From assembly GCF_042242105.1 (NCBI RefSeq), contig NC_092028.1, positions 10,339,338 through 10,403,337 on the forward strand: a DNA stretch of 64,000 nt, given 5' to 3'. Under the pieces are notes generated by a model, which was given only the letters and a program-made list of their open reading frames with translations, did no database searches and had not been told where the DNA came from. Each line of letters starts with the position of its first letter. The first letter of the stretch is position 1. Shown here piece by piece: positions 55,901 to 61,900 of this stretch. This DNA comes from Pempheris klunzingeri (taxonomy: Eukaryota > Chordata > Actinopteri > Acropomatiformes > Pempheridae). The position numbers and the translations under genes were made by a program.

Positions 55901-58900
55901 GCAACAGGGAGCGAAGCTTCATGTCATTTCTGTTGATTTTTAAAAAAAAAATTATAATCAATCAAGGAAATGAAATCTATATACATCCAGTCCAATGGAG
56001 AATTAATCAGATGGATTGTGATAGCGGTGTCATTGCATAGAGGAGGGTGATTACATTCGGACATTCCCAGTGAGGTGTTAATGACATGGTGGGGGACGGG
56101 CATGTGGAGAGAATATTACTGTTAGGAGATCCAATCTGTTGAAAGTTGCTGTATCCGTCTGCCTGTGTGCCTGTGATACTGTGTTGTACAAGGTAACATT
56201 GCATAACAGTAACAGCTCTCTGGGGCATCGCACTGCGTGGGAAATCATCTGATGAATAGAAATGCAAAGACTAATTTTGTAACTTCACAGTCTGCTGTAA
56301 TCCTACTGTATCAAATGCCCATATTAGGGGTGGGGTGGGAGGGGGGGGGGTCAGTTCAGTGATAGATGTTTGTACACAACTTACCGTTGCCGTAGAAACA
56401 GCGAGTGGTTACCGTGGAGACTGACAACAACACACAGAAGTCGTCAGGGAAACAGAAAAAATATAATAAATAAAGGAACAAATAATCCTAGGAACAAAAG
56501 AAACCTAAATGCCCAGCCCTCCCCTCCTTGTCCCGCGTGAAATAAAACCCTGATATCAGCAGTGTTAAAGCTCAGAACAGAATATGAGAGAAAGAGGAAA
56601 GAGGAAGAAAGGGGGGAGAGGATGCTAGCTCTCAATGCTTAACAGAGCTGCGAGCATCAATACAGCAAATCAGAAGGTATTCGGTGCTCTAGAGAACCCA
56701 GAGAGATGGTGAAGCTATGCGGCAACCTTGCCGTAACCCCAAAAATTAGCCTACTGAATGTACAGCGAGGGGTTGAAATGCAGCTAATTGGAACACGTCC
56801 AAGGAGAAAGAGCAGATGCAAATGCACGCCACCCTCCTTCATAAGAGCAGAATAGTAAAGGTTGGTTAAATGCTGTCTGGGTCTGTTACAGTCAAAAGGA
56901 CAAGTGGAGGTATTTTGGTGAGAGTTTGCGAGAAATGACTCTTTCTTGTGTGGTTAAGTTAGGCCACAAGAGAAGAGTGTGTATTTGGAAATTGGTCGTG
57001 GGTACAGTGGCTAAAATTTCCTGTTTTACCAGTCACCACAAAAGAAAAAAAACAAAAAACATACTGAAGGTTGTATGGCAGTCAAAACAAACAATAACAG
57101 TAAGAAAATAAGACAGAACATTCAAAACAAGAGATGACAATAGATGGAAACAAACTAAGGCAGACAGAGATGATGGCAAAAAGGAATATTCAAGTTAGAA
57201 AAACCGCAGTAGATTATTTTCAAATGAAATACAAACAGAGGGAAAGACATACTAGACTGGCAACAAGAGAATGAAAGAACAAGGAAGAGAAAGAATGGAG
57301 CCGACACACAAAGAAAGACCGAAGATTGGAAAGGGCAAAGTGCAAACTCTCTTTCCCCTTTTCTTTCAACCGTTTCTACATTTTCACTCATGTACAAAGC
57401 AAACACACATGGATACTCACACATTTCATTCATTTATCTGCTCTGGGGAAAGTCATGCAGTAACAGAAAGTTCCGATAACAAAACAGGACTGGTCAAATC
57501 CAAAGCCGGGGGGAGGGTCATCTATGAAACTGGGACACAAGGAGCTGGTAAGCCTTCACCTCAGGCCTTCGCCCATCCGACAACTCACAATCAAGGTCTC
57601 GCAATAGAAATAATGCTACTGAAAAAAAAAAAATCATGCAAAAGGTTCATAGTGTTTATGGAAATGGCTGATTTCAGGCCCAGGCCAAAGTGAGCTGAAG
57701 GCCAACTGTGTCCCATCAGAGAGTGTGGTGGCAGCACTGGTCGGTGACGGTGTGCATGGTCGGGCATGCAGAACCACTGGCACAACTTCCTCTCGTACTT
57801 TTCACCTCACGCATCCATGCAGTGATGTCACTCTTAACTGGGGAGTCACGCCCTCCCCCCTTTGCATGCAGAGCTGCGCCACTTGTGACACACACACCTC
57901 AGCTCTTCTGTGCTATTGTGTCTGAGTGTCTGACTAAAACTCTGCGCTGCGGAGGAGCCGTCACTTCCTGTGACCCTCCAGTCACACAGATCAGTCCAGC
58001 ACAAACACACAACTAACAGGGGTTAGTGAATGGGAGTCTATAGGGTTTAGCATGGTCTCTGTGGCCGTGTGCACGCTTTCTGCAACTACTGACGTGTTCA
58101 AACTGCTGCGCTTTTGCTGTGTTCACACTGTGTGCAAATCAATAGCAAACGGACCAGAGAGCTATCAGAAAGCATGATGTAACACAAGGTAAACCTGCAC
58201 GCTCTTTTATACAAAGCTGACTGTTTGGTGCTGATTACTTTTTTTTTTTTTTTTTTTTTTTTTTTTTTTTTACTTACTTTGTCTTGCATTGTTGGAGATG
58301 GAACAATTTCTGTTTTTATAATAGCCAGGATACACATTGACCTTCAAATTGTCACCTATTAGAGTATAACCTGGAGAAAAGAAAATCGCTCTGGAATCAT
58401 CAGCAAGAAGCGCAGTTGGTGCACCCATGTACTGCACCGTTTTGTACTTTAAGAGGCACACATAGTAATCCAACAACTTCCTGATTGAGATTTGAGGCTT
58501 CACAAATAAGACCATGCAGGGACCCTGAGGCACTTCCTTTACAGCCACTGATTGCAGCCTATGAATGAAATATGTGACTAAATGGTATGAAGTAACAAAG
58601 TAACAGAAGTAGCACCACTGGTGTTAGAGCACAATCACAGAGACAGCCATGAGTGGGTGATGTATTGAGGTGATTTTGAGAGCATACTAAGACACACACT
58701 GTCACACCTATATATAGACCTACAGGACTCTAAAGTCTATATATAGAATTAATAGTGATGACATGGGATCACAGAAAAGCAGGTAGAGACAAACTGAACT
58801 GTAGTTGGGCCACTTACATGGATACATTGGAAGTGCACGGGAAACTGACTTCTTCAAAGCGCAGAGTTTTATTCCAGACAAAGACAAGTACAGTATAACT

Positions 58901-61900
58901 TTGAGTACAACAGTTCTTTCTATTTCATACAGGCTACACACATGCAAACTATGAGCAGCTAAGCTATGAGAATAACCAACTCCTATGGTCATGCACCAAG
59001 AAATAAGTATACCAGCATACCTTTATAAATCAATCAAATGAAGATTTCAGCTATTCAGCCTTTTTTGAATGAATGGAGTGGGACTGTGAGGCACCAAGGT
59101 GTGACATGCTAACTAAACAAGTCAACAGTCCCCCCCCCCCCACCAAAACTAATTCAAACAGCCATACAGGGAAAAAAAAACATGCAAGAAAAAAATACAT
59201 CCAGCTGTCTGCAATACTGCCTCAGTTAGGCTACATCTTTCCATTTTAAAATACCAACCATGCACACTTATGCGACATCAACTAAACTCATGCCAGTGGA
59301 TAGCAGTGAACTGCAGGATCACCCACAATAATATTAATGTATAACCGTGGTATACAGTAGGCCTATATTTCAGAGTTTCTGAATTATTATACAAATATGA
59401 TTACTGCAGCCATCTTCATCTCTGGAAACATAGTTCAACAAACTCTGAAATGATATGACCAATTACAGCAAGAATATCACAGTCACGTCTGCAAGGAGAA
59501 CTGCCAGATAGCATTGCCTCAAATAGTCCGGCCCTTTCTCCTCGGTTGAAAGAATGTATAAACACAAATCCGCGATTTGTCCTGCGCCAGCCTTTTGTCT
59601 CTTCAAGCCCATGCACCATAAACAGACAGAGAGAGACACACACTCTGCAGACTCCTTTTTGCTGGCCCACCATGCAGCTGATTCATGACGCGCTACAGCC
59701 CGACACCACTACGGTATAACAGAGGACATGCAGAGTGACAACTGAAAACAAAGACAAACTGCTCGCTGATTAATAAAAGTGACTGATGTCATGCAAAACT
59801 TGGGAAGAAAAAACAGAGAATCGGATCAAAGCAATGCCAGGAACAACACAGGTTGTTGACTGAACACAGGGCTGAGACTGATGCAGGGAAAATTGGCTCC
59901 ATCAGTAACCATTCAGCTTGCTGATTGACTGAAGGTGGAGGTGGTGGAGGGAGTATGTTGTACCAGAGGATGCAGGTGGCTGTCTTTCATTCTTGACCAC
60001 ACTGCAGCAGAGCTGAGAGTACAGAACTAAAAAGGGTCCAGCCAGCCTCATCCATCATGCAGGGACTGACTCGCACACACCCACACACACCACAAGGAAA
60101 TCACCACAGTAAGCCCATGCAGAGATCCTGGCTTACGGTGGCTTGGTTAAGAGATCCAACATGGACAACTGGCTGATTTAAACCCCAATCAAAATAAAAT
60201 AAAATAAGAAAAACTGCTTTCAAAATCTCAGCACATGCTTCAGTTAAAGAAAAGACAAACAATATTTAATCAAATCAAAATAAACAACCTGAACACACAT
60301 ATAGACTTTGCATATATAAAAACTCAAGTACACAGATCTTTGGTAAGAATCCAGACTTCCATAAAGTGAACATGCATCAGTGTTGCTGTGATTCCCAGCA
60401 TGCTGCTGTTGCACCAGGAGCCATACGCTTGTCACAACCACTTAGCCACAGCACCAGGAGAGGGGAACACAGAAGGATTTCTACACTAGGGAGGAAAATA
60501 AGAGCATCTGACAGCAATCTGCCATGCATCATCCTTTCACTGCGCTCCTCTTGTGCCCTCCGGTGCCAGCTACACAAACATCACTCAAATTGTTGCAGAA
60601 AAAGTTGTAACATCAGTGTGGCTACAAGATGCGCGTCAGTGGGAAAAAAAGGTGAAGAAGCAACAGCTTAAAATATGAAAAAAAAATGCTGCAGAGGAAA
60701 ATTACCCAGCATGCCTTATTTAGTGTTCTTGCACCCTCAATCATTCCCACCACAAAAACGAAAAAAGGAGAAGGATTTTTACGTTTAAAAATGAAAAACA
60801 GGCGATATCAGTGGGCTGCATCAGAGCATATCACTAAAGGGAGGATGGGAGCTAGCTTGCAGTCAGTGATCAAGCAGAATTAGGATGGGAGCACAGAGAG
60901 AAGACAGAAGAGAAGGAGGGAGAGGGAGAGAGAGAGAGGAAAATTACCTCAATCTTACGACCTTCCACCAGTGTACCGTGGAGCTTTTCCCTGGCTTTCT
61001 CTGCGTCTGCGCTGTTCTCAAATGTCACAAAGCCAAAACCCTGTGGAACACGGCAGAGGTTAAAGAGGTTGGCGGTGAGCGAGGGGCACATCATAAGGGG
61101 ATTGTGGAGAGGGAGGGAGGAGAATCTGTGAATCTTTAGACCTTGTAGTGCACTCCAACATTGTTAAATAGATAATTAGAGTCTCATAACAATGCAATAC
61201 AAAGTGTCACATTTACTGAGAAAAACCATGCAAAGGGGGAATAGCTGTCCACAGTCAGGAGGAACTGTAGTGTAGGTTCAGAGAACCAAATGTCTTCTGT
61301 GCACTTACCTTTGAACCCCGCTCATTGAAAATGATCTCTACATCCAGAATCTTCCCAAATTGCTGCAAATAAATCAGAGAAAAGAAATGAGCAAGAATAT
61401 ATAAAAAGAAAAGCTGTCAATTACATCTGTGGGTTGTCTGAGGATCTTAACTTTGGTTAGATCTCTGTCTTTTGGGATGACATTGTGCAATGTTTCTGAC
61501 AATGTGTGAGTTACAGCTGCTTTTCACTAGGTGTCACTATTACACAGAAGACAGCATCCCATATTTTCATGCGTTTCTTTTTTATCCATCTGCCTTGAAC
61601 TCTGCTCTGTCCCCTTCTTTCCCTCTTACTTGGTCACTAATGCGAACACAGTGACACACATAGCAGCCAACAGCCCCCTCGAGCACCAGGAGAACAACCA
61701 TTATTGTCTTTCCTTTATATCAGTTTGACTCTATTGTCTGTCTCTAAACCCCACCCCTAGTGAGCCGAACCCTTGGTGGAGGACCTGGGGTGTCTAGACT
61801 GATTTATTGGCCTTGTTAAAAATGAGGCCCACAACATTCCCAGTGTCTTACCCCAAACATCTGCCTGAGGTCGGGGTCCCGGAAGCGGAAGGGGATGTTT

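Follow-up and report, generated by a model that had tools for sequence, protein, structure and literature searches.

Deep intronic clusters of (U)GCAUG accompanied by LASR motifs, for example in NTrk2/TrkB, have been described by Tomassoni-Ardori et al. 2025 (PMC12435732). By their rule, which asks for at least four (T)GCATG in 500 nt and extends the group by sites less than 500 nt off, a mammalian genome contains about 20,000 such clusters, and these lie in LASR-binding sequence enriched in hnRNP M and hnRNP H motifs (PMC12435732). The other closely related system is the control that Rbfox proteins exert on Rbfox transcripts. Two later papers (PMC3126832, PMC5577181) credit Damianov and Black 2010 with the finding that Rbfox proteins auto- and cross-regulate the 93-nt RRM exon. 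In mammals, Rbfox controls both the RRM exon and a cryptic exon in the following intron (PMC3126832), and intron 6 of mammalian Rbfox2 contains the cryptic NMD exon 6*, of 71 nt in mouse and 74 nt in human (Dredge and Jensen 2011, PMC3126832). Self-tuning of splicing by Rbfox is an already known kind of control, and the cluster described here is probably another case of it.

The window, by which we mean the whole 64-kb stretch of Pempheris klunzingeri DNA that was analysed, carries on its minus strand an rbfox2-type gene, in line with the first-pass annotation's assignment to rbfox2; a sense TGCATG therefore reads CATGCA on the plus strand. The 93-nt exon lies inside the RRM, keeps the frame and has phase 0 at both ends. 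The cluster had been placed in rbfox2's own intron and it is indeed there, directly downstream of this exon (Table 1). Given by their lowest plus-strand coordinate, the sense sites are at 57454, 57635, 57765, 57816, 57865, 58513, 58941, 58990, 59181, 59259, 59610, 59671, 59727, 59790, 60056, 60116, 60371 and 60523. Only two antisense copies occur in 57454-60538, at 57753 and 57863, the latter overlapping sense site 57865 as a palindrome. Our exact recount thus agrees with the 18 sense and two antisense sites reported earlier and bears out a strand-specific cluster (binomial p = 0.0004; p = 0.002 against the rest of the window), while the "about two" sites given for the remainder of the intron become three sense and two antisense. 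The entire window has 60 sense and 39 antisense copies, or 42 and 37 without the cluster.

Table 1. Features in and around the rbfox2-type intron that contains the TGCATG cluster (window coordinates).
Feature	Position	Strand	Remark
Upstream RRM exon, 54 nt	61309..61362	(-)	
Lone sense TGCATG	61227..61232	(-)	192 nt from the 93-nt exon, in the 268-nt intron that precedes it
93-nt RRM exon (GFGFVTF...GRKIE)	60948..61040	(-)	counterpart of mammalian Rbfox2 exon 6
Intron 3' of the 93-nt RRM exon	53094..60947	(-)	houses the TGCATG cluster
Cluster of 18 sense TGCATG	57454..60528	(-)	exact hexamer count
Pseudo-exon candidate, 93 nt, in-frame stop	58278..58370	(-)	in the largest cluster gap (58513 to 57865)
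Putative cryptic exon, 36 nt	56385..56420	(-)	in block 56328-56478, conserved between two rbfox2 genes
Next coding exon, read as 88 nt	53006..53093	(-)	

The size of the excess depends on the null that is chosen. Base composition predicts 0.84 sense sites and gives a 21-fold excess, for which the earlier figure of roughly 20-fold over random holds; the other nulls are less generous, with an excess of about 12-fold when 19 stretches from elsewhere in the assembly are the reference (1.48 expected; 62.6 kb in all, TGCATG at 0.479 per kb per strand, largest single-strand count 4) and of about 8-fold when it is the sense strand of the window outside the cluster (2.13 expected). In Markov simulations of order 1, 2 and 4 (300 per order, n = 900, 64 kb each), the highest count per 3,080-nt span was 10, 8 and 11, respectively, compared with 18 in the real sequence. 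The enrichment is limited to the exact hexamer. Its 18 one-letter neighbours amount to 18 occurrences in the cluster, where their frequency in the remaining window predicts 19.1, and its anagrams (179 types) average 0.9 each. In the cluster, GCATG is preceded by T in 18 of 22 sense occurrences; for both strands of the window outside it the figure is 79 of 171 (p = 0.003). In a hexamer scan that omitted single-letter runs, stronger clustering was seen only in simple-repeat words.

A simple alternative is that the cluster is a by-product of local site formation, with weak binding or none and without any effect on splicing. We regard this as rather unlikely, as the count, the strand bias and the exact-motif specificity are all far from what the composition nulls produce. 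There is also no sign of a repeat origin in the DNA compared, in support of the earlier view that the flanks are unrelated and that repeat expansion does not explain the cluster: the flanks of the 18 sites have a mean identity of 13.86/54, the same as random positions (13.86/54), no copy of the cluster was matched by blastn at E 0.001 in 345 kb (partly overlapping) of the 646-Mb genome, and the cluster contains just one of the two arrays that Tandem Repeats Finder reported in 50000-64000, a T33 run (58239-58271). On the other side, the predicted accessibility of the sites is not especially high (mean unpairedness 0.045; region 0.115, anagrams 0.029), which gives binding no support and would suit sites without effect, as would the abundance of (U)GCAUG clusters in mammals noted above (PMC12435732).

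The locus resembles the mammalian clusters in having many UGCAUGs per 500-nt window in distal intronic sequence. With strict TGCATG, the rule of four in 500 nt divides the cluster into one group of 13 sites at 58513-60523 and another of 5 sites at 57454-57865, and yields no further group on either strand of the window. The looser GCATG rule yields four sense and two antisense groups, so clusters of the GCATG type are not rare; one antisense group, 57754-58172, overlaps the cluster region. Among the words that we take to be secondary Rbfox words, sense-strand counts in the cluster exceed expectation for GTTTG (10 vs 5.5), GTATG (5 vs 2.2), GCGTG (4 vs 1.7) and GTGTG (23 vs 8.3), an excess that may come from GU-richness; GCACG is absent (0.9 expected). 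The setting is GU-rich and of hnRNP M type, another likeness to the mammalian clusters: hnRNP M pentamers number 136 on the sense strand against 70.8 expected and 47 on the other strand, with the remaining window as background, whereas random genome sequence was used for the mammalian clusters (PMC12435732). By the same measure, hnRNP H motifs are not enriched (16 vs 14.7), which is unlike the mammalian clusters, and hnRNP C motifs are neither enriched nor depleted (73 vs 74.5). The present cluster further differs in being from a fish and in lying within an Rbfox gene itself.

We count at least six rbfox genes in the assembly (two rbfox2, two rbfox3, rbfox1 and rbfox1l), and the 93-nt RRM exon is present in all five of the others. 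In the second rbfox2 gene, the corresponding intron holds five sense and one antisense TGCATG without a dense cluster (p = 0.05 relative to the region of that gene; GCATG 13 vs 4, p = 0.003), and those of the two rbfox3 genes hold 5 vs 0 and 3 vs 1. These three introns therefore share a weaker sense bias (combined, 13 sense vs 2 antisense). In rbfox1 the counts are 2 vs 3, no excess beyond the splice-site copies, and in rbfox1l, with an intron of only 81 nt, 0 vs 0. The four longer sister introns together (11.2 kb) have 15 sense and 5 antisense copies, with p = 0.0005 and 0.62, respectively, against the genome rate. Within 720 nt 3' of the RRM exon, a cut-off chosen afterwards, the two rbfox2 and two rbfox3 genes have 10 sense and one antisense copy, and the strict four-in-500-nt rule finds four clusters, all sense, across the six rbfox regions (264 kb). 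That sister introns are likewise sense-biased, and that the cluster sits in an Rbfox gene next to an exon under Rbfox control in mammals, argues against sites without effect; in their favour, the cluster cannot be aligned to the other rbfox2 gene, where no match is better than E 0.3.

The gene family and the 93-nt exon are the same as in the mammalian autoregulation. In the arrangement attributed to Damianov and Black, Fox sites reportedly overlap the splice sites of the RRM exon. Such is the case for rbfox1 of this assembly, where TGCATG lies at -37, -9 and +2 and hence at both splice sites. In contrast, splice-site copies are absent from both rbfox2 genes, and the rbfox2 gene studied here has instead its one upstream site and 18 sites 420-3,489 nt downstream.

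The cluster might also govern an unannotated exon within itself, as had been suggested, whose inclusion would end translation. The best candidate occupies the largest gap in the cluster, has an in-frame stop and scores 13.5 for its splice sites, compared with 8.6 for the 93-nt exon; the matrices are rough, giving the real exon only this value, and the same threshold is passed in the window by 35 sense pairs (some of them real exons) and 23 antisense pairs. An 18-nt stretch at the candidate's end can pair at 17 of 18 positions with the intron upstream of the RRM exon (equalled by one of 300 shuffles; arms with short flanks form a predicted duplex of -24.4 kcal/mol), yet this was noticed after the fact and has no equivalent in the second rbfox2 gene, where the best 18-mer has four mismatches. 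The candidate itself is without a match in that intron, and its donor adjoins a poly(A) run. We therefore consider an exon inside the cluster distinctly improbable as its target.

On sequence grounds, the putative 36-nt exon about 1 kb past the cluster appears to be a better cryptic-exon candidate. Its block has 72% identity over 172 columns with the second rbfox2 gene, where the exon would be 48 nt; both predicted splice sites are conserved, and in the reading frame continued from the 93-nt exon the fourth codon is TAA. A profile of the block matched only the two rbfox2 genes from which it was built and none of the four other rbfox regions, and shuffles of the exon-like stretch fold almost as well as the stretch itself (z = -1.4). 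The block recalls exon 6* in that it is conserved, looks like an exon, carries an in-frame stop and lies in the equivalent intron of the fish gene; the candidate differs in length, 36/48 nt against 71/74 nt.

The block can also be read as two RFX-like boxes, using what we take to be the RFX consensus, and the intron may therefore contain an enhancer. It is nonetheless highly improbable that the TGCATG words act in DNA as part of one rather than in RNA: what is conserved lies outside the cluster, and a strand bias of 18 to 2 is not expected of independent sites in double-stranded DNA. The first-pass annotation had also raised the possibility of a sponge that titrates Rbfox protein. Spliced introns, however, are short-lived and rare relative to an abundant nuclear protein, so their amount is unlikely to suffice; Rfam gave nothing at gathering scores in 52000-64000, and nothing points to a stable RNA. 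The 18 strong sites in one RNA and the reported use of designed multi-motif RNA oligonucleotides as splicing-factor decoys (PMC6453957) speak for titration, which we nevertheless hold to be extremely improbable.

Distal splicing control, as proposed earlier, is the best, if tentative, reading of a strand-specific cluster with sense-biased sister introns. The cluster would be an RNA-level docking region in rbfox2 pre-mRNA, where Rbfox would bind many UGCAUGs 3' of the RRM exon together with GU-binding LASR partners such as hnRNP M and would alter splicing of rbfox2's own 93-nt exon, possibly set against the downstream cryptic stop-codon exon. We give this reading, a Rbfox/LASR-binding region that controls the RRM exon of its own gene, a probability of roughly 0.55. 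Against it speak the distance to the exon (420 nt for the first site, more than 800 nt for 16 of the 18), the failure to align with the second rbfox2 gene and the few sites there, the lack of an excess in rbfox1 beyond the splice-site copies, the commonness of GCATG groups, the unremarkable predicted accessibility and the unenriched hnRNP H and C motifs. As a rule, downstream Rbfox sites activate and upstream sites repress, which predicts more RRM-exon inclusion and less of the cryptic exon. In mammalian cells, excess Rbfox3 has the opposite effect at Rbfox2 (PMC3126832).

A more speculative version, which we think unlikely, is that a spaced array in one post-duplication rbfox2 copy assembles Rbfox/LASR for graded rather than switch-like self-control. 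Here 18 UGCAUGs, with 7 of the 17 gaps at 49-63 nt and none below 49 nt (a post hoc observation), would take the place of splice-site sites, flanked on one side by the RRM exon and on the other by a putative stop-codon exon that both rbfox2 copies have kept.

If the main reading is true, this intron would be a dense natural test case of distal Rbfox control inside an Rbfox gene, for which the same genome offers comparisons: a second rbfox2 that has few sites, two rbfox3 whose sites lie close downstream, and an rbfox1 whose copies are at the splice sites. Should the spacing pattern hold, it would inform the question of how Rbfox and LASR assemble on RNA. The block at 56328-56478 may be the fish counterpart of the mammalian NMD exon, in which case this control would be old in bony vertebrates.

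The intron that follows the RRM exon of the rbfox2-type gene carries 18 copies of CATGCA on the + strand, that is TGCATG on the minus strand, between 57454 and 60528, and since the gene lies on the minus strand these 18 are in the sense of the pre-mRNA. TGCATG on the + strand occurs twice in the same span (57753 and 57863), so our recount agrees with the strand-biased 18 against 2 of the first-pass annotation. Base composition predicts 0.84 occurrences in the span; the rate in 19 further stretches of the assembly (62.6 kb, with 60 TGCATG on both strands and a highest single-strand count of 4) predicts 1.48, and that of the remaining sense strand of the window 2.13. 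Simulated 64-kb sequences of order 1, 2 and 4 (300 each) never held more than 10, 8 and 11 copies, respectively, in any 3,080-nt span, compared with the 18 seen, and a hexamer scan of the window, single-letter runs excluded, found stronger clustering only for simple-repeat words.

Within the cluster, 18 of the 22 sense GCATG have a T in front, as do 2 of the 6 on its other strand; for the rest of the window the figure is 79 of 171, both strands combined. TGCATG has 18 one-letter neighbours, which total 18 occurrences in the cluster (19.1 expected from the remaining window), and 179 anagrams, which average 0.9 each. Composition and a decaying repeat are therefore both poor explanations of the cluster. 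Comparison of the flanks of the 18 sites revealed no relatedness, as had been noted from inspection, and the cluster had no match in 345 kb of DNA from partly overlapping stretches. As a post hoc observation, 7 of the 17 gaps between sites fall within 49-63 nt and the minimum is 49; among 20,000 random placements, 0.07% had seven or more gaps in some 15-nt band and 0.7% had no gap below 49 nt. The pattern is not clearly repeated in clusters of two sister regions (gaps 32-426), and the predicted accessibility of the TGCATG sites is unremarkable.

Exons were placed with an Rbfox2-type protein sequence. Against the PDB, the RRM best matched Fox-1 homologue 1 chains (E 1.1e-56), with RBM9, a synonym of RBFOX2, at E 1.7e-52. 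Downstream of the 93-nt RRM exon the cluster occupies the stretch from 420 to 3,489 nt, and the following coding exon starts at 53093. One additional sense TGCATG stands 192 nt upstream of the 93-nt exon, and none is found at its splice sites in the window's rbfox2 gene; the rbfox1 RRM exon has TGCATG at -37, -9 and +2. Damianov and Black in 2010 reportedly placed Fox sites at the splice sites of the RRM exon. The exon after the RRM exon (53006-53093, minus strand) reads 88 nt and aligns over its full length with the second rbfox2 gene, on contig C3; it is 27 nt longer than its mammalian counterpart (61 nt), with the frame kept. A 43-nt candidate (49996-50038, minus strand), probably the muscle-type 43-nt Rbfox exon, has good splice sites and matches C3 at 82% over 108 columns. 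The two rbfox2 genes also share a 48-nt block (63692-63739, minus strand) at 85% identity, which lies upstream of an exon at roughly 63277-63426; no coding role was seen for it.

Fox-1 C-terminal family matches in the 646-Mb assembly lie at no fewer than six rbfox genes, including the window's, and their exons were mapped; we assigned paralogue names from exon sequence, without a tree. Pooled, the four longer introns of the sister genes hold 15 sense and 5 antisense TGCATG, with 5.4 expected per strand (p 0.0005 sense, 0.62 antisense), and 13 versus 2 without rbfox1 (p 0.00001). A strict rule (4 TGCATG in 500 nt) yields four clusters across the six rbfox regions (264 kb), all of them sense: two in the window, one in the C3 region and one in rbfox3 on contig C20. 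The looser GCATG rule, applied to the window alone, yields four sense and two antisense clusters. TGCATG totals 176 sense and 133 antisense over the 264 kb. In rbfox3 on C20, the 16.6-kb intron that precedes the 54-nt exon has 19 sense and 6 antisense copies, including a 7-site cluster.

Features of the window and TGCATG counts in the introns following the RRM exon
Feature	Position	Strand	Length (nt)	TGCATG sense	TGCATG antisense	Basis or remark
93-nt RRM exon	60948-61040	-	93			protein-guided exon placement
Intron, window's rbfox2			7,851	21	4	
Intron, C3 rbfox2			3,842	5	1	
Intron, rbfox3 on C20			1,435	5	0	
Intron, rbfox3 on C17			780	3	1	
Intron, rbfox1			5,141	2	3	
Intron, rbfox1l			81	0	0	
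Neighbour gene, open frame	38453-39658	+				7tm_3 receptor domain; presumably GPRC5-like
Neighbour gene, frame	2305-2931	-				FYVE zinc finger
Perhaps a young repeat	23554-24189					96% identity over 639 columns, inverted, to C3:15504055-15504693

The C3 rbfox2 intron shows no alignment to the cluster itself, with no match better than E 0.3. It does align with 56328-56478 (E 9e-21; 72% over 172 columns) and, in two pieces at 82%, with 54657-54811 (minus strand); the latter contains GATTGG/ATTGGCT words (inverted CCAAT). The cluster sits between the RRM exon and the 56328-56478 block, ending about 1 kb before it. The block holds an exon-like stretch, ttgttgtcag/TCTCCACGGTAA...GGCAACG/gtaagttgtgtaca, 36 nt long in the window and 48 nt in C3; a pyrimidine-rich tract precedes it, and its fourth codon is TAA after either the 93-nt or the 54-nt exon. 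According to PMC3126832, the corresponding mammalian intron contains a cryptic NMD exon, 6* (74 nt in human, 71 nt in mouse), and Rbfox3 raises exon 6* and reduces RRM exon use. The exon-like stretch may be the fish counterpart of exon 6*, although the lengths differ; the same letters can be read instead as two RFX-like boxes, which are kept in both rbfox2 genes.

An unannotated exon within the cluster, also raised in the first-pass annotation, fared less well: the candidate, 58278-58370, lacks a match in C3 and is one of many splice-site pairs that pass in the window (23 antisense and 35 sense, the latter including some real exons). Two 18-nt arms, one in the intron preceding the RRM exon (61188-61205) and one within the cluster (58276-58293), are complementary at 17 of 18 positions, which was equalled by 1 of 300 shuffles and is absent in C3; their pairing would loop out the RRM exon together with 13 of the 18 sites.

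Among the papers listed in the literature searches, none describes the rbfox2 intron cluster. According to PMC12435732, Rbfox1 requires deep intronic (U)GCAUG clusters amid hnRNP M and H motifs to control the splicing of TrkB in a mouse minigene. In our cluster hnRNP M pentamers are at nearly twice the level expected (136 against 70.8, and 47 on the other strand), but hnRNP H pentamers show no enrichment. The most likely reading of the sequence is that the cluster is a putative docking region for Rbfox/LASR, the complex of Rbfox with partners including hnRNP M, and the distal control of the 93-nt RRM exon proposed earlier stands at that strength. The usual Rbfox positional rule would predict that the cluster favours the RRM exon and silences the cryptic exon; the mammalian precedent would have a net Rbfox effect opposite to this rule. 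Rbfox/LASR docked on the sense TGCATG sites downstream of the RRM exon in the rbfox2 pre-mRNA would act on splicing of the gene's own RRM exon, perhaps against a putative cryptic exon.
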